Position numbers and translations under genes: made by a program. Positions 38,010 to 51,118 of a stretch of 64,000 nt of DNA are shown piece by piece. Position 1 is the stretch's first letter. Every line of letters begins with the position of its first letter. Origin of the DNA: Nitrospira sp. (lineage in GTDB: Bacteria > Nitrospirota > Nitrospiria > Nitrospirales > Nitrospiraceae); the NCBI GenBank assembly GCA_030123565.1, contig CP126122.1:3300800-3364799 (forward strand), written 5' to 3'. Under the pieces are notes generated by a model. That model worked only from the letters and a program-made list of their open reading frames with translations, searched no databases and had not been told where the DNA came from.

Positions 38010-40424
38010 TTACGCGACCCGCGCACGCCGGAGCCGCAGGCTGTTCGTCACCACGCTGACTGAACTGAACGCCATGGCCGCACCGGCCAGAATGGGACTG
38101 AGCAGAATGCCGAAGGCCGGGTAGAGGATGCCGGCCGCGACCGGAATGCCGACGACGTTGTAGACAAATGCCCAGACCAAGTTCTGTTTCATCGTCCGCA
38201 TTGTTCGCCTGGCGAGAAGAATCGCCGATACGACACCGGGGAGATCGTTTCGCATTAACGTCACGTCGCTGGCTTCCAGGGCGATATCGGTGCCGGTGCC
38301 GATCGCGAACCCGACATCGGCCTGCGCCAAGGCTGGAGCATCGTTGATGCCATCGCCCACCATCGCGACGACCTCTCCTGCCTGCTGACGGCGTCGGACC
38401 TCGACCACTTTGCCATCCGGCAATACCCCAGCGACCACGCGGTCGATCCCGGCCTTCCGTGCGATGGCCTCCGCGGTGCGTTGATGATCCCCCGTTAACA
38501 TCACCACCGTGAGCCCCAGTCGGTTCAGCCTTTGAACCGCGTCACGGGATGTGGGCTTGATCGGATCGGCTACGGCGATCAATCCCGCCAACTTGCCGTT
38601 GATCGCGATATACATCGGCGTTTTTCCCTCACCGGCTAGACGTTCCACCTCCTCTTTCACTGCGGTGAGATCCACCGCATAATCAGCCATGAGCGCCTCA
38701 TTGCCGACAGCCAGCGCGGCACCATCTACCATGCCAGTTGCTCCCCGTCCCGTGACCGATTGGAATGAGTCTGCCGTCGCCAGGGGCAACGACTGCTCGT
38801 TCGCATAGCGCACGATCGCCTCAGCCAGCGGATGTTCAGAGGAGGCCTCGATCGAGGCGACCAGCCGTACGAGATCTGTTTCGGACCACTCCGTACCCAA
38901 AACCGGTACCACGTCCGTGACGGTCGGCCGCCCCTCCGTGATCGTGCCGGTCTTATCCAACACGACGGTGTTGATCTGACCGGCCCGCTGCAACGATTCG
39001 CCGCCTTTGATCAAAATACCCCCTTCGGCTCCCTTGCCGGTCGCCACCATGACGGCAGTCGGTACGGCAAGTCCCATCGCGCAGGGGCAGGCAATGATCA
39101 GGACCGCCACCGCCGCGGCAAATGCACGCATGGCCGGCGCCTGGTCAGCCGTCACAAACCAGATCACAAACGTCGCGATCGCGAGTGACAGCACGATCGG
39201 CACGAAGATCCCGCTGACCTGATCGGCGAGCCTCTGGATAGGTGCCCGTGAGCCCTGAGCATCACGCATCAGCTTGACGATATGGGCCAGGACGCTGTCC
39301 GACCCCAGCGTCGTCGCGCGATACCGGAAGGCGCCGGTCCTATTGATCGTGCCGCCGATGAGGCGATCCCCCGGCTGTTTCTCGACAGGCAATGATTCGC
39401 CCGTCACCATCGATTCATCGACCGCGCTCGTCCCCGAAATGATGGCTCCATCTACAGGAATGCGTTCTCCCGGTCGCACGATCACGATCTCCTCGCTCTG
39501 CACGTCGTTCACTGGGATGTCGACCTCAGCGCCGGCCCGCACCACCCGCGCCGTGTTCGGTTGGAGTTCCACCAGACGCCTCAAGGCCGCAGAGGTCTGG
39601 CGCTTGGCCCGCGCCTCCAGCGCATTGCCGGTCAGGATCAGCGCAATGATCATGACCACCGCCTCATAATAGAGGTCCGGCAGCACGCCCCGATTCAGAA
39701 AGAACTTCGGCGCCACAGTCGCCAGCACGGAGTAGAGGAAGGCTGCCCCTGTGCCGACTGCGATGAGTGTGTTCATGTCCGCCGAGTGATGTCGGAAGGC
39801 GGACCAGGCGCGCACGTAGAAATGCCGCCCCGCCCAACCCATGACGAGCAAGGTCAGCGCGTACGATAACACCCATGGGGTGAACGTATAGAGCCAGGGA
39901 GCGACGGCGCGGATGGTGGGGGTCATGGATTCCATGACCCATCGCATGAACGGATCGGCAACCGGTCCATGGACATCCGCCTCGGCAGCCCCCATGAGCG
40001 GCATGGACAGTGTCATGGCCAGCAGACCGATGCTTCCACTCCACAACGCCTTGTGCCTGAGTTCCCGATAGTCTTCCTCCTGTGCCCGATCCTGTGCCTC
40101 CTGCTCATCGAACGCGCTCTGATCCTGCGCGACTAGTTCCGCACCATACCCGGTTTCGTGGATCGCCTCGACCAGGACCATGGGGGAGGTCACCATAGGA
40201 TCGTACGTGACGGCGGCATTCTTCAGCATGAGGTTCACTGAGGCGTCGAGGACGCCCGGCGTTGCCTGCAACGCCCGTTGCACTCGCGCCTGACAGGCGG
40301 CGCAGGTCATTCCCTTCACGGGAATCATGACCTTCTCACTGGTAGTCGCTGCATTGGTTCCGTATTCAGCCGTACCTGTCAGGTTCCGTTTCTCTCTCAC
40401 CATCAAGGGAATCGTAGTCGGCAT
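38010..40424 (-). CDS. copA: Copper-translocating P1B-type ATPase
   Basis: An 804-residue heavy-metal ATPase. There is one N-terminal metal-binding domain ([15 protein letters not shown], about residue 37). The membrane helices contain the ion-binding CPC in [16 protein letters not shown], the phosphorylated Asp is in [15 protein letters not shown], and [22 protein letters not shown] and [19 protein letters not shown] follow. The helix-6 CPC and the late membrane Asn/Tyr and Met-Ser-Ser type residues ([18 protein letters not shown]) indicate monovalent copper export. It is followed upstream by a tethered cupredoxin and CopZ in one operon. Confidence 0.95.
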
Positions 40425-40437
40425 GGTTTTCTCCTCG

Positions 40438-40818
40438 TCAGTCTTGCACGATGAGCCGACCGCGCAACATGCTCATCCCGCAGGTAAACTCGAAATTTCC
40501 TGTCTGTGCCGGCGCGAGTTCGAGCCGGGTCTTTCGGAAGGCGGGCAAGAACTTGCGGACCCCGAAACCTGGAAAGACGATCTCTTCCGAACAACCTGAC
40601 CGTTCTCGGCGGTCGAAGACGAACCGGACCGGCCTGTCCCTCTTTACGCTCACCACGGCTGGGTGATAGCCGCCTTCAACCACAATGGCGACCTCCTGGA
40701 CTCCCTCCCCGTCGATGCCGGCGTTCGACACCGGCTGTCGGGCCAAAAAGAAATACCAATTGATCCAGATCATCGCCGCGATTCCGCCGATGATGACAAT
40801 CCATTCCATCATGCTCAT
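40438..40818 (-). CDS. Membrane-tethered cupredoxin-like protein
   Basis: A 126-residue protein with an N-terminal anchor ([19 protein letters not shown]) and a cupredoxin-1-type domain: [32 protein letters not shown] and a C-terminal [10 protein letters not shown] with Cys and Met residues able to bind Cu(I). Such proteins accompany CopA in many bacteria and probably accept exported copper at the outer face of the membrane. It sits between copZ (four-base overlap) and copA (13-base gap). Confidence 0.87.
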
Positions 40819-41033
40819 GCCACCCTCCTGGCCAACTGTGCCTCATATCCCGCCTCGTTCATAGCCAGGATAATTTCCATGGGAACGATTTCCTTCGGGT
40901 CATACACGACGGTCGCTTCGCCGACCTTCACGCTGTTCACCTGCAGGCCGTCGAGCCGGGTCAGCGCCTTCGTGACCTGTCCGACGCAATGCCCGCAGCT
41001 CATCCCGGTGATCTTCAGGGTCAATTCGTCCAT
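40815..41033 (-). CDS. copZ: CopZ-like copper chaperone (HMA domain)
   Basis: A 72-residue heavy-metal-associated domain protein with the binding motif ITGMSCGHCVGQVTKAL and the ferredoxin-like beta-alpha-beta-beta-alpha-beta order. It carries Cu(I) in the cytoplasm to the CopA N-terminal domain. First gene of the copZ-cupredoxin-copA operon. AGGAGGTTCGCC precedes the ATG. No MerR/CueR-type operator was seen in the 130 bases upstream, which end at the inverted-repeat element. Confidence 0.93.
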   Translation of the reverse strand: MDELTLKITGMSCGHCVGQVTKALTRLDGLQVNSVKVGEATVVYDPKEIVPMEIILAMNEAGYEAQLARRVA

Positions 41034-41381: not shown

Positions 41382-42011
41382 TTATTCGCACGTGCAATTT
41401 AGGCAGCCGTGTGTACTGCAGACCCCGCAGGACTGCTCCAGGCTGGCGCGCAAGGCTTGACGGGCTCGATGCAACCGAACCGTGAGATTGCCTTGGGAGA
41501 TCTTTAACTCCTCTGCGACACGTTTCGGAGATTCGTCTTCGAGATCAATGCGCCGGATGAGTTCAGCATAGTTGGAACGCAGCGTCGGCAGGAGCCGGTA
41601 AAGGCAGGTACAGACGGTGGCTTTCACCTCGTCGATTGGAGGCTCCTTGTCGTCCCCGGAGAGAGTCAGCTCCCGGAGAAAGGCTTCATTGCGGCGAGCT
41701 TCCGCGCCTTTCGACCGATAATAGTCGATGAGTGTGTGGCGAATGATTTTATGGAACCAGGCCACCACACTGTCATCATGCCGTACGGAATGGTGACGTT
41801 GAACGGCTCGGATTAGGCTTTGTTGCAATAAGTCCTCAGCCACAGCCTCGTCACCGACACGACGGCGTAGAAACATTCGGAACGCAGACTCATGCTCGAG
41901 AAGCTGTTGGATCATGCCGTTCAGGTGAGGCTCAGGAGTCGCGTTCGATGCGGTGAAGGACCCCTCGCCTTGTGGTTCTAACGACTTTCTTTTATTCAAA
42001 GAGTTCCTCAT
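41382..42011 (-). CDS. ECF-type RNA polymerase sigma factor with Cys-rich C-terminus
   Basis: A 209-residue sigma-70-family ECF factor. Region 2 is AVAEDLLQQSLIRAVQRHH and VVAWFHKIIRHTLIDYYRSK; region 4 is LIRRIDLEDESPKRVAEELK and the helix-turn-helix ISQGNLTVRLHRARQALRAS. The last 20 residues carry a cluster of five cysteines and one His (CGVCSTHGC, LNCTCE), likely a metal or redox sensor that replaces an anti-sigma factor. None is adjacent. It lies between copZ and the merR unit, so a role in the metal response is probable. Confidence 0.9.
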   Translation of the reverse strand: MRNSLNKRKSLEPQGEGSFTASNATPEPHLNGMIQQLLEHESAFRMFLRRRVGDEAVAEDLLQQSLIRAVQRHHSVRHDDSVVAWFHKIIRHTLIDYYRSKGAEARRNEAFLRELTLSGDDKEPPIDEVKATVCTCLYRLLPTLRSNYAELIRRIDLEDESPKRVAEELKISQGNLTVRLHRARQALRASLEQSCGVCSTHGCLNCTCE

Positions 42012-42070: not shown

Positions 42071-42445
42071 TCATGCGTCGGAACCTCCGTGCTCGCAGCA
42101 CAGCGGGGTCTTGTCTATGGGCCCACCCATCAGACATTCCTTGTAGACGCGATAGGCCTTGAGCGCCCACTCTTCCCCCGGACAGCCTTGCATCGTCATG
42201 GCCACTTCGAGGAATTCAATCAGTTCCTCCTGTGAGACACCCCTATCATAAGCCATCTTCACATAAGCTCCGATACAGGGTTCGCAACGAATGGTGATGG
42301 AGACAACCATTGCCGTCAACAGTTTGTATTTGGCTGCGACAACCGCATCGCGATAGGTCTCCTGCCGCATGCGGAGAAGGCCGCCGGTTACCTGTGGGCT
42401 CAAGCGACGCAATTCCGCGAACAGACTCTCGCGTTCTGGGGTCAT
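42071..42445 (-). CDS. Carboxymuconolactone decarboxylase/AhpD-like protein
   Basis: A 124-residue protein of the CMD fold with an AhpD-type redox motif IRCEPCIGAYVKMAYDRGV (CxxC and downstream His position replaced). YRDAVVAAKYKLLTAMVVSI is the preceding helix. The C-terminus carries a further Cys pair and His (LCCEHGGS). It may be a peroxidase-linked thiol reductase. The ATG overlaps the merR stop by four bases, so it is made with MerR and may respond to thiol-reactive metal. Confidence 0.87.
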   Translation of the reverse strand: MTPERESLFAELRRLSPQVTGGLLRMRQETYRDAVVAAKYKLLTAMVVSITIRCEPCIGAYVKMAYDRGVSQEELIEFLEVAMTMQGCPGEEWALKAYRVYKECLMGGPIDKTPLCCEHGGSDA

Positions 42446-42882
42446 CCTTTGGCCACTCCTTTCTTCGCACCGGCTTGTGTTTCGTCTTCGAGGCTCATCA
42501 GAATCGGACAGGGACCGGTGGGCTGGCCGACTCTGCAAGCCCGGATCAAACTGTTCAGCGCGCGGGCCAGTGCCTGCAAGTCGTCAACTTTGGATTCCAC
42601 CTGCACGAGTTTCGCCCGAGCTTTCTCCAGCACCTCACCACAGCGAGCCGTTGAAGCAACCCGGAGGGCGAGCAATTCAGCGATCTCGCGTAGGGTGAAG
42701 CCGAGCGCTTGGGCGTTTTTGATGAACCGTAAACGTCGTTCCTCTTCATGACTGTACAGTCTGTAGCCCGAAAGCTTCCGCGTTAATGGCGTGAGCAGAT
42801 TCAAGCGTTCGTAGTAACGGACTGTTTGGACATTCACTCCGACTTTCCTTGCAAGCTGACCGATAGTCAGTTGAGCAGCCAT
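42442..42882 (-). CDS. merR: MerR-family regulator with Hg-type cysteine triad
   Basis: A 146-residue MerR protein. The winged helix-turn-helix is QLTIGQLARKVGVNVQTVRY and YERLNLLTPL. The dimerisation helix is followed by the three Cys typical of mercury MerR: TARCGEVLEKA, LIRACRVGQ and TGPCPILMSL, in the positions of Tn501 MerR Cys82, Cys117 and Cys126. It should repress and, with Hg(II) or a similar soft ion, activate a promoter with a 19-20 bp spacer. Two such promoters flank its 5' side. No merT, merP or merA is in the window. Confidence 0.9.
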   Translation of the reverse strand: MAAQLTIGQLARKVGVNVQTVRYYERLNLLTPLTRKLSGYRLYSHEEERRLRFIKNAQALGFTLREIAELLALRVASTARCGEVLEKARAKLVQVESKVDDLQALARALNSLIRACRVGQPTGPCPILMSLEDETQAGAKKGVAKG

Positions 42883-42900: not shown

Positions 42901-42932
42901 AGTCTACACCTTATACTCCGGTAGAGAGTCAA
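42901..42932 (-). promoter_or_regulatory. MerR-type promoter for merR
   Basis: On the minus strand TTGACT (42932-42927) and TAGACT (42906-42901) are separated by 20 bases, longer than the usual 17, as in promoters that MerR proteins untwist. The spacer contains the dyad ACTC-N5-GAGT. The site is 19 bases from the merR ATG, consistent with autoregulation. Confidence 0.72.
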
Positions 42933-42958: not shown

Positions 42959-42990
42959 TTGACCCAGTACTACGGTACAGGCTGTAGGAT
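42959..42990 (+). promoter_or_regulatory. MerR-type promoter for the 28-residue mini-gene
   Basis: TTGACC (42959-42964) and TAGGAT (42985-42990) are separated by exactly 20 bases. The spacer holds the dyad CCAGTAC-TACG-GTACAGG, close to the mercury operator CCGTAC-N4-GTACGG. Its outer arms extend over the -35 edge, as expected. It points away from merR and toward the mini-gene at 43017. Confidence 0.75.
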
Positions 42991-43016
42991 GGCGTTTGCG
43001 AAAGGAGGTGATTGCG

Positions 43017-43103
43017 ATGTGTCCATGGGTTGAACAGTTTGGCTTTTGCCCCTATGGGGCCGTATCCAAGGTGTGGCAGTGGGTGCATAGCCTCGTGAGT
43101 TGA
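43017..43103 (+). CDS. 28-residue Cys- and Trp-containing peptide under a MerR-type promoter
   Basis: A 29-codon gene with an exceptionally strong ribosome binding site (AAAGGAGGTGA, six bases before the ATG). It is about 27 bases downstream of a MerR-type -10 box and followed after 11 bases by a perfect terminator hairpin, so the whole unit is about 150 bases. The peptide has two Cys nine residues apart (MCPWVEQFGFCPYG) and an aromatic, amphipathic second half (VSKVWQWVHSLV). It could bind a soft metal or act at the membrane. I know no family for it. Confidence 0.7.
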   Translation: MCPWVEQFGFCPYGAVSKVWQWVHSLVS

Positions 43104-43114
43104 CCGCTGAGAGG

Positions 43115-43150
43115 ACAGAAGGGCGGCGTCTCAATGTGCCGCCCTTCTGT
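43115..43150 (+). terminator. Terminator hairpin after the mini-gene
   Basis: A perfect 13-bp stem (ACAGAAGGGCGGC pairing with GCCGCCCTTCTGT) with a 10-base loop. No U tract follows on either strand, so termination may be partial or protein-assisted; the stem itself is very stable. It ends 54 bases before the CusA fragment stop. Confidence 0.8.
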
Positions 43151-43203: not shown

Positions 43204-43597
43204 CTACCGCAACACTCTCTGCGATACAGGACTCGAAATCGTGGAACGGAACTGCACGCGTCGCCAGAGGGAATAGAGCACCGGAATGACGATCAACGTG
43301 AGTACCGTCGAGCTGACCCTACCGCGGATCATGGGAGCAGCAATTCGTTTCATCACATCCGCCCCCGTACCGGTCGTCCACAAGATGGGGAGTAAGCCAC
43401 CCATGATCGCGACGACCGTCATTATCTTGGGGCGTACCCGTTTGACGGCCCCTTCCATAATAGCTTCGCGCAGGTCTTGGGCTGTCACCATTCGGCCTTC
43501 ACGCACTCGGCGTTCATACACTTCATCAAGATAGACCAGCATGACCACCCCGGCCTCCGCCGCCACGCCAGCCAGCGCGATGATTCCAACCCAGGGT
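43204..43597 (-). pseudogene. CusA/CzcA C-terminal fragment
   Basis: The frame reads the last about 130 residues of a heavy-metal RND pump: WVGIIALAGVAAEAGVVML, LREAIMEGAVKRVRPKIMT, ILWTTGTGADVMKRIAAPM and LTLIVIPVLYSLWRR. It aligns with the end of the intact pump at 44220-47399 but differs at many positions, so it is an old duplicate and not a recent copy. Homology stops abruptly near 43597, inside a transmembrane block, leaving no start. A partial duplication or the remains of a second cus operon is the likely origin. Confidence 0.8.
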
Positions 43598-43776: not shown

Positions 43777-44130
43777 TTACGAATGGCCTCTCATGTCTCG
43801 ATGGGCTCGTGCCATGACCTCGGCTTGCTCAGCCGCCTTGGTGTAGATTGTCGCGAGAGTTTGGCAGTGCTGGACCATATCGATCTTGGAGGACACAACC
43901 CCGCGAGTATTCGGCCCGGGCTTCTTTTGATATTCCTCCGCCATCACAAGCATATCTTTTGCCCGTTGATGGAGGTGAGCTGCCTCCTTCACATACCAGG
44001 TTTCCAGCCCTGCGTGGTCGTTCTTGGCAACAAGGTCTTGAGGTGGACTCGCAATGACTGCGCATGCCACGACTCCAGCCACCATCAAAGCTGCCAGGAC
44101 ACCTCTGAATAGGTTCCATTTCTTTGTCAT
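43777..44130 (-). CDS. Small exported helical protein downstream of cusA
   Basis: A 117-residue protein with a signal segment (FRGVLAALMVAGVVACAVIA) in which VVAC could be a lipobox. A helical domain follows with His and Cys residues: YVKEAAHLHQRAKDMLVMA and MVQHCQTLATIYTKAAEQA, ending in a His-bearing tail (ARAHRDMRGHS). It follows cusA by 89 bases on the same strand and may be a periplasmic metal-binding accessory. AAGGAGGGAATC precedes the ATG. Family not recognised. Confidence 0.75.
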   Translation of the reverse strand: MTKKWNLFRGVLAALMVAGVVACAVIASPPQDLVAKNDHAGLETWYVKEAAHLHQRAKDMLVMAEEYQKKPGPNTRGVVSSKIDMVQHCQTLATIYTKAAEQAEVMARAHRDMRGHS

Positions 44131-44219: not shown

Positions 44220-47200
44220 TTAGTGCGCCTTTATCGGAATGTCTTCCTGCGCTTTTTCCTGTGCCAGGTCAACGCTGTCCAGCAGCCGGCGCTCCTCTTT
44301 CCAAATGGACCGGTCCCGCCACAAGGCATAGAGAACCGGAATCACCAACAACGTGAGAATCGTTGAGCTGACCATCCCCCCGACCATCGGTGCGGCAATC
44401 CGTTTCATCACGTCCGCGCCTGTGCCGGTCGTCCACATGATCGGGAGTAAGCCGCCCGTGATCGCGGCGACCGTCATCATCTTGGGTCGCACCCGCTGGA
44501 CCGCTCCCTCCATGATGGCCTCGCGCAGGTCGTGAACCGTCGTCATCAGGCCTTCGCGCACCCGCCGTTCATACGCTTCGTCGAGATAGACGAGCATCAC
44601 GACGCCAGTCTCTGCTGCCACGCCGGCCAGCGCGATGATCCCAACCCAGACGGCCACACTGAGGTTGTACCCGAGATAGTCGAGATACCAGATGGCCCCG
44701 ATCGCAGCGAAGGGAACGGACAGCAACACGATCAGCGATTTCGCGAGCGAGCGGAAATTGAGGTACAGGAGCAAGAGGATCAGGGCCAGGGTCACAGGAA
44801 CAACGAGCTTCAGCCGCTCTTCGGCCCTCACTAAATGCTCATATTGACCGGCCCAGACCAGCCGGTATCCAGTGGGCAGCGCCACCTGCTCTCGGACGGC
44901 TCGTTGAGCGTCTTGAACATAGCCGCGCAGGTCGCGTCCACTGACTACGACCGACACCAGACCGGCCAATGCCCCTGCCTCATCCGCGATCGACGGTGGC
45001 CCCTGCGTGATCACCATTTCTGCGATTTGTCCGAGCGGGATCTGCGCGCCGCTCGGCGTGGGAATCAGCACGCGTTTGAGTCGGTCTGGGTCATCACGCA
45101 GCTCGCGTTTGTAGCGAACATTGACCGGATACCGCTCCCGCCCCTCGACTGTCGTCGTCACGGTGTCTCCCCCGATGGCGGAGGTGATCACCGCCTGCAC
45201 ATCTCCCACCGTCAGGCCATAGCGGGCCGCATCGCGTCGGTTGATGGTCAGGTCCAGATAATAGCCCTCATTGAGTCGTTCTGCGAATGCGCTCCTGGTG
45301 CCTGGCACGCTCGCCAAGACCTTCTCGATTTCCACGCCGATTCGCTCGATGGTCTTCAGATCCGGCCCCAGCACCTTGATCCCGACGGGACTCCGGACGC
45401 CGGTTGTGATCATTTCGGTGCGGGTCTGGATCGGCATCCACCAGATGTTCGGAAAGCCAGGAATGCGCAGCTTCGCGTCCATTTCATCCAGTAACCGGTC
45501 CCAAGTCATGCCAGGCCGCCATTGCGCCTCCGGCTTGAGGGTGACCGTGATTTCGGCCATTCCCACGAAGGCCGGATCGGTGGCAGTCGGGGCCTTTCCC
45601 ATCTTGCCGAACACCCGTTCCACTTCCGGGAAGGTCGTGAGCAACTGGTCCTGGACCTGTAAGATCTTGGTCGCTTCGGGAATGGACAGGCCGGGCACGG
45701 TGGTCGGCATGTAGAGGATGGTCCCTTCGTTCAGGGGCGGCATGAATTCGGCGCCGAGGCGCGTGAACAGCGGCACCGTGATGGCGATCGCTGCCACCGC
45801 CAACCCAATCGTCAGCCACCGGACGCGCAGCGCGCCCGAGAGGATGGGCCGATACAGAGCGATCAGCAACCGGTTCAACGGATTTTTGGTTTCCGCTCGG
45901 ATGCGCCCCCGGATAAGGATGACCATCAGGACAGGAGCCAATGTCACCGAAAGCGCGGTGGCAGAGAGCATTGCAAATGTCTTGGTGTAGGCCAACGGGG
46001 TAAACAGTCGGCCCTCCTGCGCTTCCAGTGCGAAGATCGGCAGGAACGACAGGGCGATCACCAGCAGCGAGAAGAACAGGGGGCGGCCGACTTCTTTCGC
46101 GGCAGCAATGATGGTTTCAACTCGATTGGTCACTGGATTCTGCTCCAGGCGCTTGTGTGCGTTTTCAACCATAACGATTGCGGCATCCACCATCGCACCA
46201 ATGGCAATGGCGATCCCGCCGAGCGACATGATGTTGGACGTAATCTTCAAGTAGGCCATCGGGATAAAGGCGAGGAGCACGGCCACGGGCAGAATGAGGA
46301 TGGCCACGAGGGCACTACGAAGGTGAAACAAAAACAGCACCGCGACTAGGCTGACGATGACAGTCTCCTCCAGCAGTTTCTCGCGGAGCAGGGCGATAGC
46401 CCGATGAATGAGATCAGACCGGTCATAGGTGGGGACGATGTGTACGCCGTTGGGCAGGGCGGGCGTGATCTCTTCCAGCCTTGTTTTGATCCTCTCGATT
46501 ACGGCAAGCGCATTCTCGCCGGCCCGCATGATCACGATGCCGCCGACCGTCTGGCCCTTGCCGTCCAACTCGGCAATCCCTCGACGCTGATCCGGCCCGA
46601 CTTGGACATGGGCAATATCCCGAATCAAGATAGGTGTGCCGCGGCCATCCGTGCCGACCGGGATCAGCTCAATATCATCAACCGAACGCAGGTAGCCTCG
46701 CCCTCGAATCACGTACTCCGTGCCGGCCATCTCCAACACGCGCCCGCTCACCTCTGCATTGCTGTTCCGGACCGCCTCGATAATCGTCTTGATCGGCAAC
46801 CGATAGACGGCCAACATATTCGGGTCCACCTCGATTTGATATTGTTTGACGAACCCGCCGATCGCTGACACTTCTGCCACTCCGGGCACACTTTCCAGTT
46901 GGTAGCGCAGGTGCCAATCCTGAAGGCTGCGAAGCTGAGCCAGATCGTGGGTTCCGGACTCGTCCACCAAGGCATATTGATAGACCCACCCGACACCGGT
47001 CGCATCGGGGCCCAGCGTCGGCGTGACGCCAGCCGGAAGCTTACCGGTCAACTTCTGCAGATACTCGAGAACGCGACTCCTCGCCCAATACAAGTCTGTC
47101 CGGTCTTCGAAGATCACATACACATAGGAGACACCGTATTCAGAAACACCTCGGACCCGTTTGACTCTGGGTCCCGCAAGCAGAGATGTGACGATTGGGT

Positions 47201-47399
47201 AGGTGACCTGGTCTTCAATCAACGTGGGGCTTCTGCCGGGCCATTCGCTGTAGATGATCACCTGGACATCTGACAGGTCCGAGATCGCATCCAGCGGAAC
47301 CTGAAACACCGCCCACAGGCCCCAGGCCGCCAACAGCAAGACACAGAGGATGACCAGAATCGGATTGCGGGCGCTCCCTTCGATCAGTCGTGCGATCAT
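44220..47399 (-). CDS. cusA: Heavy-metal efflux RND transporter permease (CusA/CzcA)
   Basis: A complete 1059-residue HME-RND pump with 12 membrane helices. Typical blocks are MIARLIEGSARNPILVIL at the start, YSEWPGRSPTLIEDQVTYP, the porter-domain repeats, GIAIAIGAMVDAAIVMVENA (proton-relay region), WMPIQTRTEMITTGVRSPVG and the terminal TTGTGADVMKRIAAPMVGG. Methionine-bearing stretches suit monovalent Cu or Ag. It forms the trimeric inner-membrane engine of the CusCBA complex encoded by this operon, separated by six bases from cusB. Confidence 0.95.
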   Translation of the reverse strand: MIARLIEGSARNPILVILCVLLLAAWGLWAVFQVPLDAISDLSDVQVIIYSEWPGRSPTLIEDQVTYPIVTSLLAGPRVKRVRGVSEYGVSYVYVIFEDRTDLYWARSRVLEYLQKLTGKLPAGVTPTLGPDATGVGWVYQYALVDESGTHDLAQLRSLQDWHLRYQLESVPGVAEVSAIGGFVKQYQIEVDPNMLAVYRLPIKTIIEAVRNSNAEVSGRVLEMAGTEYVIRGRGYLRSVDDIELIPVGTDGRGTPILIRDIAHVQVGPDQRRGIAELDGKGQTVGGIVIMRAGENALAVIERIKTRLEEITPALPNGVHIVPTYDRSDLIHRAIALLREKLLEETVIVSLVAVLFLFHLRSALVAILILPVAVLLAFIPMAYLKITSNIMSLGGIAIAIGAMVDAAIVMVENAHKRLEQNPVTNRVETIIAAAKEVGRPLFFSLLVIALSFLPIFALEAQEGRLFTPLAYTKTFAMLSATALSVTLAPVLMVILIRGRIRAETKNPLNRLLIALYRPILSGALRVRWLTIGLAVAAIAITVPLFTRLGAEFMPPLNEGTILYMPTTVPGLSIPEATKILQVQDQLLTTFPEVERVFGKMGKAPTATDPAFVGMAEITVTLKPEAQWRPGMTWDRLLDEMDAKLRIPGFPNIWWMPIQTRTEMITTGVRSPVGIKVLGPDLKTIERIGVEIEKVLASVPGTRSAFAERLNEGYYLDLTINRRDAARYGLTVGDVQAVITSAIGGDTVTTTVEGRERYPVNVRYKRELRDDPDRLKRVLIPTPSGAQIPLGQIAEMVITQGPPSIADEAGALAGLVSVVVSGRDLRGYVQDAQRAVREQVALPTGYRLVWAGQYEHLVRAEERLKLVVPVTLALILLLLYLNFRSLAKSLIVLLSVPFAAIGAIWYLDYLGYNLSVAVWVGIIALAGVAAETGVVMLVYLDEAYERRVREGLMTTVHDLREAIMEGAVQRVRPKMMTVAAITGGLLPIMWTTGTGADVMKRIAAPMVGGMVSSTILTLLVIPVLYALWRDRSIWKEERRLLDSVDLAQEKAQEDIPIKAH

Positions 47400-50620: not shown

Positions 50621-50986
50621 TCAAATGCGAAGCACGATTGTGTTAGTCCGGAGCAGTTGAGACGAACTGTCTGAAGGTAAGGGGAAAGGATACTTCAGGA
50701 TACCACCTGGCGGAGGTGACGAGAGGAGAGAGCCTGAAAGTGTTTCTCCCAGCCACAGCATGTGGCCATCACATGAAGGCTGGGGCTGACTCGACGCCTC
50801 GACAGTGAACGTCTTAAAGGCGTCGCACACCTGCCGTGCCGGTTGCTCTTCAGGGGTTGAGCAACCATTGCCCATCTCCATGCTTGAACCGCTGCTCACC
50901 GGCAAGAGACAGGCATAGGCGTTGAAACTCAATACAAGAAGGAACAGCACCAAGATCGTTGAGAGGAGGGGATGGAAGCGGCGCAT
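50621..50986 (-). CDS. Small exported Cys-containing protein heading the cus cluster
   Basis: A 121-residue protein with a signal peptide (PLLSTILVLFLLVLSFNAYA) whose cleavage would leave a Cys near the mature start. The mature part has a Met/Cys segment (SSSMEMGNGCSTPEE-like SGSSMEMGNGCSTPEE, then VCDAFKTF and SCDGHMLWLG) and a Ser/Pro-rich tail. The Met, Cys and His content fits periplasmic metal binding. The start at 50986 is set by AGGAGA nine bases upstream. Likely co-expressed with cusCBA. No family recognised. Confidence 0.75.
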   Translation of the reverse strand: MRRFHPLLSTILVLFLLVLSFNAYACLLPVSSGSSMEMGNGCSTPEEQPARQVCDAFKTFTVEASSQPQPSCDGHMLWLGETLSGSLLSSPPPGGILKYPFPLPSDSSSQLLRTNTIVLRI

Positions 50987-51118
50987 GGAAACGTCTCCTG
51001 AGCATGGAAACCTTAGCACTTTCTACATGGGCTCGCAAGGTGACCTCTCCATAGCTGTGTGAAGGGGAATGCGGAATGAGAACTAAAGAATGAACGGGAA
51101 AGAAAGAACGAGAGCCGG

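Follow-up and report, generated by a model that had tools for sequence, protein, structure and literature searches.

We asked whether a 28-codon reading frame diverging from a merR-like gene in Nitrospira is a gene at all and, if so, what its product might do in a metal regulon. The frame lies in a 64,000-nucleotide stretch of a Nitrospira sp. genome (assembly GCA_030123565.1, contig CP126122.1, positions 3,300,800 to 3,364,799; hereafter the window), where an earlier note had read it as part of a self-contained, metal-induced unit. The mer operon is among the best studied bacterial resistance systems, so that an unnoticed conserved gene inside it would be surprising; in water treatment, a setting with routine exposure to metals, Nitrospira serve as key nitrifiers.

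The elements that the earlier note had described, from the -35/-10 pair with its 20-bp spacer and GTAC-TACG-GTAC dyad to the ribosome site and the 28-codon frame, are all present (Table 1). The ribosome site with a near ATG has six exact occurrences in the genome, two of which belong to the two peptide copies, the second lying at 1754227-1754310 on the minus strand. The hairpin 3' of the frame is indeed perfect over 13 bp, but the accompanying label of a perfect terminator goes too far: no T-run comes after the hairpin, where the sequence reads GTCCCCGCTC, and a terminator scan leaves it unlisted. Hairpins of differing sequence are found 3' of nearly all peptide homologues. The unit faces no plus-strand gene, as had been proposed, the next genes to its right lying on the minus strand. 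The coding sequence measures 87 nt, which may explain its absence from annotation; common gene callers have a default minimum of 90 nt, just above this length.

Table 1. Features of the peptide locus and its surroundings in the window (window coordinates).
Feature	Coordinates	Strand	Basis or remark
Copper-type P1B ATPase (CopA-like)	38010..40424	minus	TIGR01511, 626.7 bits (cut-off 397)
Cupredoxin-domain protein	40438..40818	minus	PF13473
Small heavy-metal-associated (HMA; CopZ/MerP-like) protein	40815..41033	minus	PF00403
ECF sigma factor	41382..42011	minus	Sigma70_r2, r4_2
AhpD/carboxymuconolactone-decarboxylase-like (CMD) protein	42071..42454	minus	PF02627
MerR-family regulator, Cys81/116/125	42442..42882	minus	Pfam MerR; TIGR02051 best family
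Second, divergent MerR-type operator, TTGACTCTCTACCGGAGTATAAGGTGTAGACT, before merR and its cluster	42901..42932	minus	pattern match
MerR-type promoter/operator of the peptide gene, TTGACC-20 bp-TAGGAT, dyad GTAC-TACG-GTAC	42959..42990 (-35 at 42959-42964, -10 at 42985-42990)	plus	operator pattern match
Ribosome site, AAAGGAGGTGA	43001..43011	plus	read from sequence
28-residue microprotein frame, MCPWVEQFGFCPYGAVSKVWQWVHSLVS	43017..43103 (ATG at 43017, stop ends at 43103)	plus	homologues, purifying selection
13-bp perfect hairpin, 10-nt loop	arms 43115-43127 / 43138-43150	plus	terminator-like, without T-run
CusA-type RND pump, C-terminal fragment	43204-43566	minus	ACR_tran profile 948-1019
Exported 117-aa protein	43777-44130	minus	no Pfam match
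CusA, full length	44220-47399	minus	
Exported 132-aa "FNAYACL" protein	50621-51019	minus	no Pfam match

A search of 101 related genomes recovered 28-residue frames nearly identical to this one in several species; adding a profile search of the phylum (396 genomes) and of the genus (29 genomes) brought the total to 29 convincing copies in 22 genomes, all within the window's family (about 420 Nitrospirota genomes searched; copy counts depend on draft assemblies). Standalone copies are the majority and end at nearly the same residue; the clearest of them keep the ATG (TTG in one), a GGAGG-type ribosome site and a nearly equal length. The earlier note had named its own refutation, a frame without conservation in which synonymous and nonsynonymous changes are equally frequent, and the idea survived it: median dN/dS among 21 standalone copies is 0.19 (108 pairs), and parsimony changes by codon position number 33/28/94, so that 94 of the 155 fall at the third position, an excess reached by none of 100,000 shuffles, where the shuffle ignores relatedness and the parsimony counts were made on a tree. 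The codons of Cys2 and Cys11, the peptide's only cysteines (C-x8-C), vary solely at the third base (TGT/TGC), and Trp4 and Trp22 never change in the standalone-copy comparison; M1, C2, P3, G9, C11 and P12 are invariant in a 13-row alignment, and the copies at loci L022 and L090 carry H or Q at position 3. Homologues and codon-level selection rule out a chance frame. The observation lies far beyond chance because the frame and ribosome site recur together in homologues from many species, most of these homologues also having the same operator and a downstream hairpin. By this comparative evidence, all of it drawn from sequence, the mini-gene is a real, conserved gene for a 28-residue protein that has so far escaped annotation, and we hold it nearly certain that it is such a gene under MerR control.

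How far the peptide reaches beyond this family was gauged by a scan of 84,980 species, which returned only Nitrospira-type records and one labelled Nitrosospira, and which used a single core pattern that distant forms outside Nitrospirota could escape. The Nitrosospira name is probably a binning label, since the same contig is found as genome G360 of the window's family. Plasmid records contain no peptide match and IMG/VR no viral one, and a plasmid or phage origin was set aside on these grounds.

The second part of the question concerns the regulator. The earlier note had placed a MerR protein with three Hg-type cysteines opposite the peptide gene, and this is borne out: its cysteines have spacings of 35 and 9, as in mercury MerR proteins (Tn501 MerR has Cys 82/117/126). 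Among family models TIGR02051, for mercury MerR, scores best, yet its 124.8 bits stay under the cut-off of 150.85, so that by sequence alone mercury is a probable inducing metal and not a firm one. The operator pattern TTGACYCNNTACYNNNGTRNNRSSNGTANNNT has four matches in the 4.6-Mb genome and none in a backward control, one upstream of each peptide copy and, in the divergent direction, one upstream of each merR gene; the pattern was derived from these loci, so the four matches are expected by construction and the informative part is that there are no others. The operator is kept before most peptide homologues, and relatives of the window merR that lack the peptide carry the same element directly before merR, which identifies it as the operator of this MerR subfamily. 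A spacer within the 19-20 bp range and a dyad between -35 and -10 mark the peptide promoter as a predicted member of a MerR regulon. The window regulator thus appears, from the operator sites, to serve a pair of promoters that face each other: one would drive merR together with the minus-strand cluster, the other the peptide. The proposal that the peptide is MerR's only divergent target therefore falls, since merR has an operator of the same type before its own cluster; gene order suggests that merR, CMD, sigma factor, HMA protein, cupredoxin and CopA form one transcript.

Across relatives, at least 22 of the 29 copies adjoin a relative of the window's MerR, in a variable arrangement. The peptide gene is divergent from merR in the window and at L021, L024-L027, L089, L091, L092 and L094-L098, lies upstream on the same strand at L023 (copy 1), L030, L031 and L032, and directly follows merR within an operon at L023 (copy 2), L099 and L100. 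Such rearrangement with the partner retained is, at the level of gene order, good evidence of a functional link. Two copies, in genome G020 and on contig C254 of G045, have no MerR nearby; at L022 and L090 another MerR-family gene precedes the peptide, a gene for an exported protein and a set of efflux-type genes follow it, and at L028 it sits among cation-efflux (CDF) genes. The peptide is a component of a mer operon in G360 (contig C42), G015 and G244. The G360 locus (L099), in the order operator, merR, peptide, merB-merT fusion, merP, CMD, merA, with a MerA over its cut-off, is by its gene content a full mercury operon. In a further arrangement among the 22 copies beside such a MerR, at L102 (G014), the peptide is fused in frame to the N-terminus of MerT, giving 144 residues with PF02411, and plasmid MerT proteins among the matches listed align to this fusion only from about residue 27. 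An AlphaFold model of the fusion is of low confidence (mean pLDDT 64) and renders the peptide region as a short turn and a helix.

The earlier note had further suggested that the peptide replaces merTPA, and here the evidence divides. The window's copy is no part of a mer operon, and its genome contains neither MerT nor MerB, nor a MerA above cut-off (best MerA-like protein 373.7 vs. 454.45 bits), and so holds no above-cut-off mer transport or enzyme gene, in keeping with the suggestion; relatives, however, encode the peptide in one operon with merB, merT, merP and merA, or fused to MerT, so that it is no general substitute for merTPA. About half of the peptide-bearing genomes are without MerT, and the peptide therefore does not need it. 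Many relatives of this merR lack the peptide; their neighbours are glutaredoxin-like, MerF, MerT, MerP, MerB or disulphide-reductase genes. Judging by these neighbourhoods, the more constant companions of the peptide are metal regulators and exporters, and the peptide is very probably a new, putative small helper in heavy-metal detoxification.

We propose that apo-MerR would restrain the 20-bp-spacer promoter until its three cysteines bind a thiophilic metal, most likely Hg(II) and possibly Cu(I) or Ag(I), whereupon, by analogy with known MerR proteins, the metal-bound regulator would underwind the DNA, realign the over-long spacer and switch the promoter on. The peptide and the divergent merR-CMD-sigma-HMA-cupredoxin-CopA cluster would then be made together, and the very strong ribosome site would yield many copies of the peptide. 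These may bind metal through Cys2 and Cys11, either free in the cytosol or attached to the cytosolic side of the inner membrane, protect thiols and pass the metal to exporters (CopA, Cus) or, where present, to Mer enzymes, with the amphipathic, Trp-rich half providing a membrane or protein contact.

Our tentatively preferred reading, taken as a whole statement, is that of a MerR-induced, thiol-bearing microprotein with affinity for Hg(II), Cu(I) or Ag(I), which protects against the metal or hands it on; our confidence in it falls somewhat short of even. The conserved frame, the fixation of both cysteines, the operator shared with merR and the Hg-type cysteine spacing of MerR argue for it, as do the mer and reductase-like neighbours, the G360 operon, the MerT fusion and the efflux or CDF neighbours at L022, L090 and L028. 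Two cysteines are few for a buffer, the copies without a nearby MerR and the poor model of the MerT fusion count against the reading, and the share of bearing genomes without MerT means that a partnership with it would not be general. A further proposal would make the peptide a new component of bacterial resistance to mercury and soft metals: in Nitrospiraceae with full mer operons it would shuttle Hg(II) (or Cu/Ag) among MerT, Mer enzymes and exporters, and in species such as this one, where mer transport and reductase genes are absent, it would have been retained to work with CopA/Cus under the same MerR. We consider this possible but doubtful. The gene is tiny and easily synthesised, making induction and metal binding directly accessible.

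A different use of the same cysteines would be to sense metal and not to carry it: the peptide would then sit at the membrane and modulate a metal transporter or pump, much as peptides of the AcrZ, KdpF or MgtS type do. The C-terminal 15-mers, with hydrophobic moments of 0.39-0.6, form an amphipathic, Trp-rich half suited to such a role, and the genetic neighbours include the CusA, CopA, CDF and MerT transporters, to the last of which one copy is directly fused; these transporters, however, belong to unrelated families and offer no single conserved pump partner, and a mean hydrophobicity of about 0.35 is low for a transmembrane helix, so that we regard modulation of a pump as unlikely, if still deserving weight. 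Less probable again is feedback on the regulon, in which the peptide would remove metal from MerR or silence MerR by binding to it, an effect that MerD achieves in a different way. The association with relatives of the same MerR through differing arrangements would suit this, and the metal loop of MerR shares the spacing C-x8-C-P with the peptide (CRVGQPTGPCP vs. CPWVEQFGFCP), but the two sequences may agree in spacing by coincidence, many genes related to this merR do without the peptide, and two copies stand beside a different MerR.

Were the unit a leader peptide, attenuator or small RNA, its transcript and hairpin would count and the frame would be incidental or only position the ribosome; the short frame, its strong ribosome site and a hairpin behind it with arms that co-vary between species have that look. 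The fixed Cys codons, the third-position excess and the low dN/dS nevertheless speak for the encoded residues, and the same sequence occurs fused into MerT and inside mer operons without such a hairpin; codon-level selection and the lack of a downstream plus-strand gene in the window largely refute this explanation, which we consider very improbable. Most improbable of all is that the frame is what decay has left of a longer protein, such as the N-terminus of a MerT fusion, kept by chance beside merR: one fused copy and a few degenerate ones would fit, but the standalone majority with its near-identical end is under purifying selection, a test that refutes the remnant reading for the standalone form. 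The degenerate copies are L093 (G327, contig C2), with an in-frame TGA before merT, and the second copy at L091 (G205, C19:113299), which has lost its 5' end and lies inside CMD-like antisense sequence.

The peptide also stands apart from described families. No Pfam or NCBIfam model fits it, a PDB search gave no meaningful match, and no description was found in the open-licence literature, so that the earlier note's impression of novelty holds within these sources. A CCCH zinc finger was rejected, the one half-match being weak (PF25585, E 0.019) and the third Cys and the His absent; a methanobactin-type precursor seems improbable, no maturation genes having been seen nearby. The closest parallel in discovery is Zrd of Pseudomonas aeruginosa, a metal-induced, previously unannotated small Cys protein found through the operator of the MerR-family regulator CadR (PMC12301328); Zrd, however, has two zinc-ribbon domains and belongs to CadR and Zn/Cd, whereas the peptide has 28 residues with a single Cys pair and lacks a ribbon motif. 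Reviews of mer gene content cover MerT, P, C, E, F, G, H, B and D and TRASH proteins (PMC3466566), none of which matches the peptide. MerT, MerF and MerE are likewise small Cys-bearing products of mer operons, and one peptide homologue is joined to the first of them, but these are integral membrane proteins, each with Cys pairs of its own and two or three transmembrane helices, and none of their domains is present in the 28-mer. Bacterial metallothioneins and CopZ/MerP-type chaperones share the intracellular thiol metal binding proposed for the peptide, which in contrast lacks a CxxC motif, the HMA fold and any sequence match in Pfam, NCBIfam or PDB, and has far fewer cysteines. AcrZ, KdpF and MgtS are similarly tiny, amphipathic or hydrophobic and genetically linked to transporters, yet consist of a single transmembrane helix with no conserved Cys, and the peptide has no common pump. 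We would describe it as a new microprotein with a putative accessory role in metal regulons of the MerR type.

Several neighbouring genes merit separate mention. An AhpD/CMD-like gene follows merR in most relatives; its product has a CEPC motif, lies near merR in most loci, including peptide-less mer loci, and is possibly an overlooked accessory protein. MerB-MerT fusion proteins occur in Nitrospiraceae mercury operons at L023, L099, L100 and G020:C16. At L030 and L032 a methyltransferase-domain protein is encoded beside the peptide and merR, the former having 415 aa, an ArsM-like appearance by eye and a terminal Cys pair. The CusA fragment beside the full-length gene in the window is a duplicated remnant. 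A relative of the 117-aa exported protein lies just downstream of the peptide, on the same strand, at L021 and L025. Relatives of the "FNAYACL" protein follow the peptide at L022 and L090 and lie near it at L028 and L033, so that the protein appears to belong to a family, as yet without a name, that is associated with loci for metal efflux.
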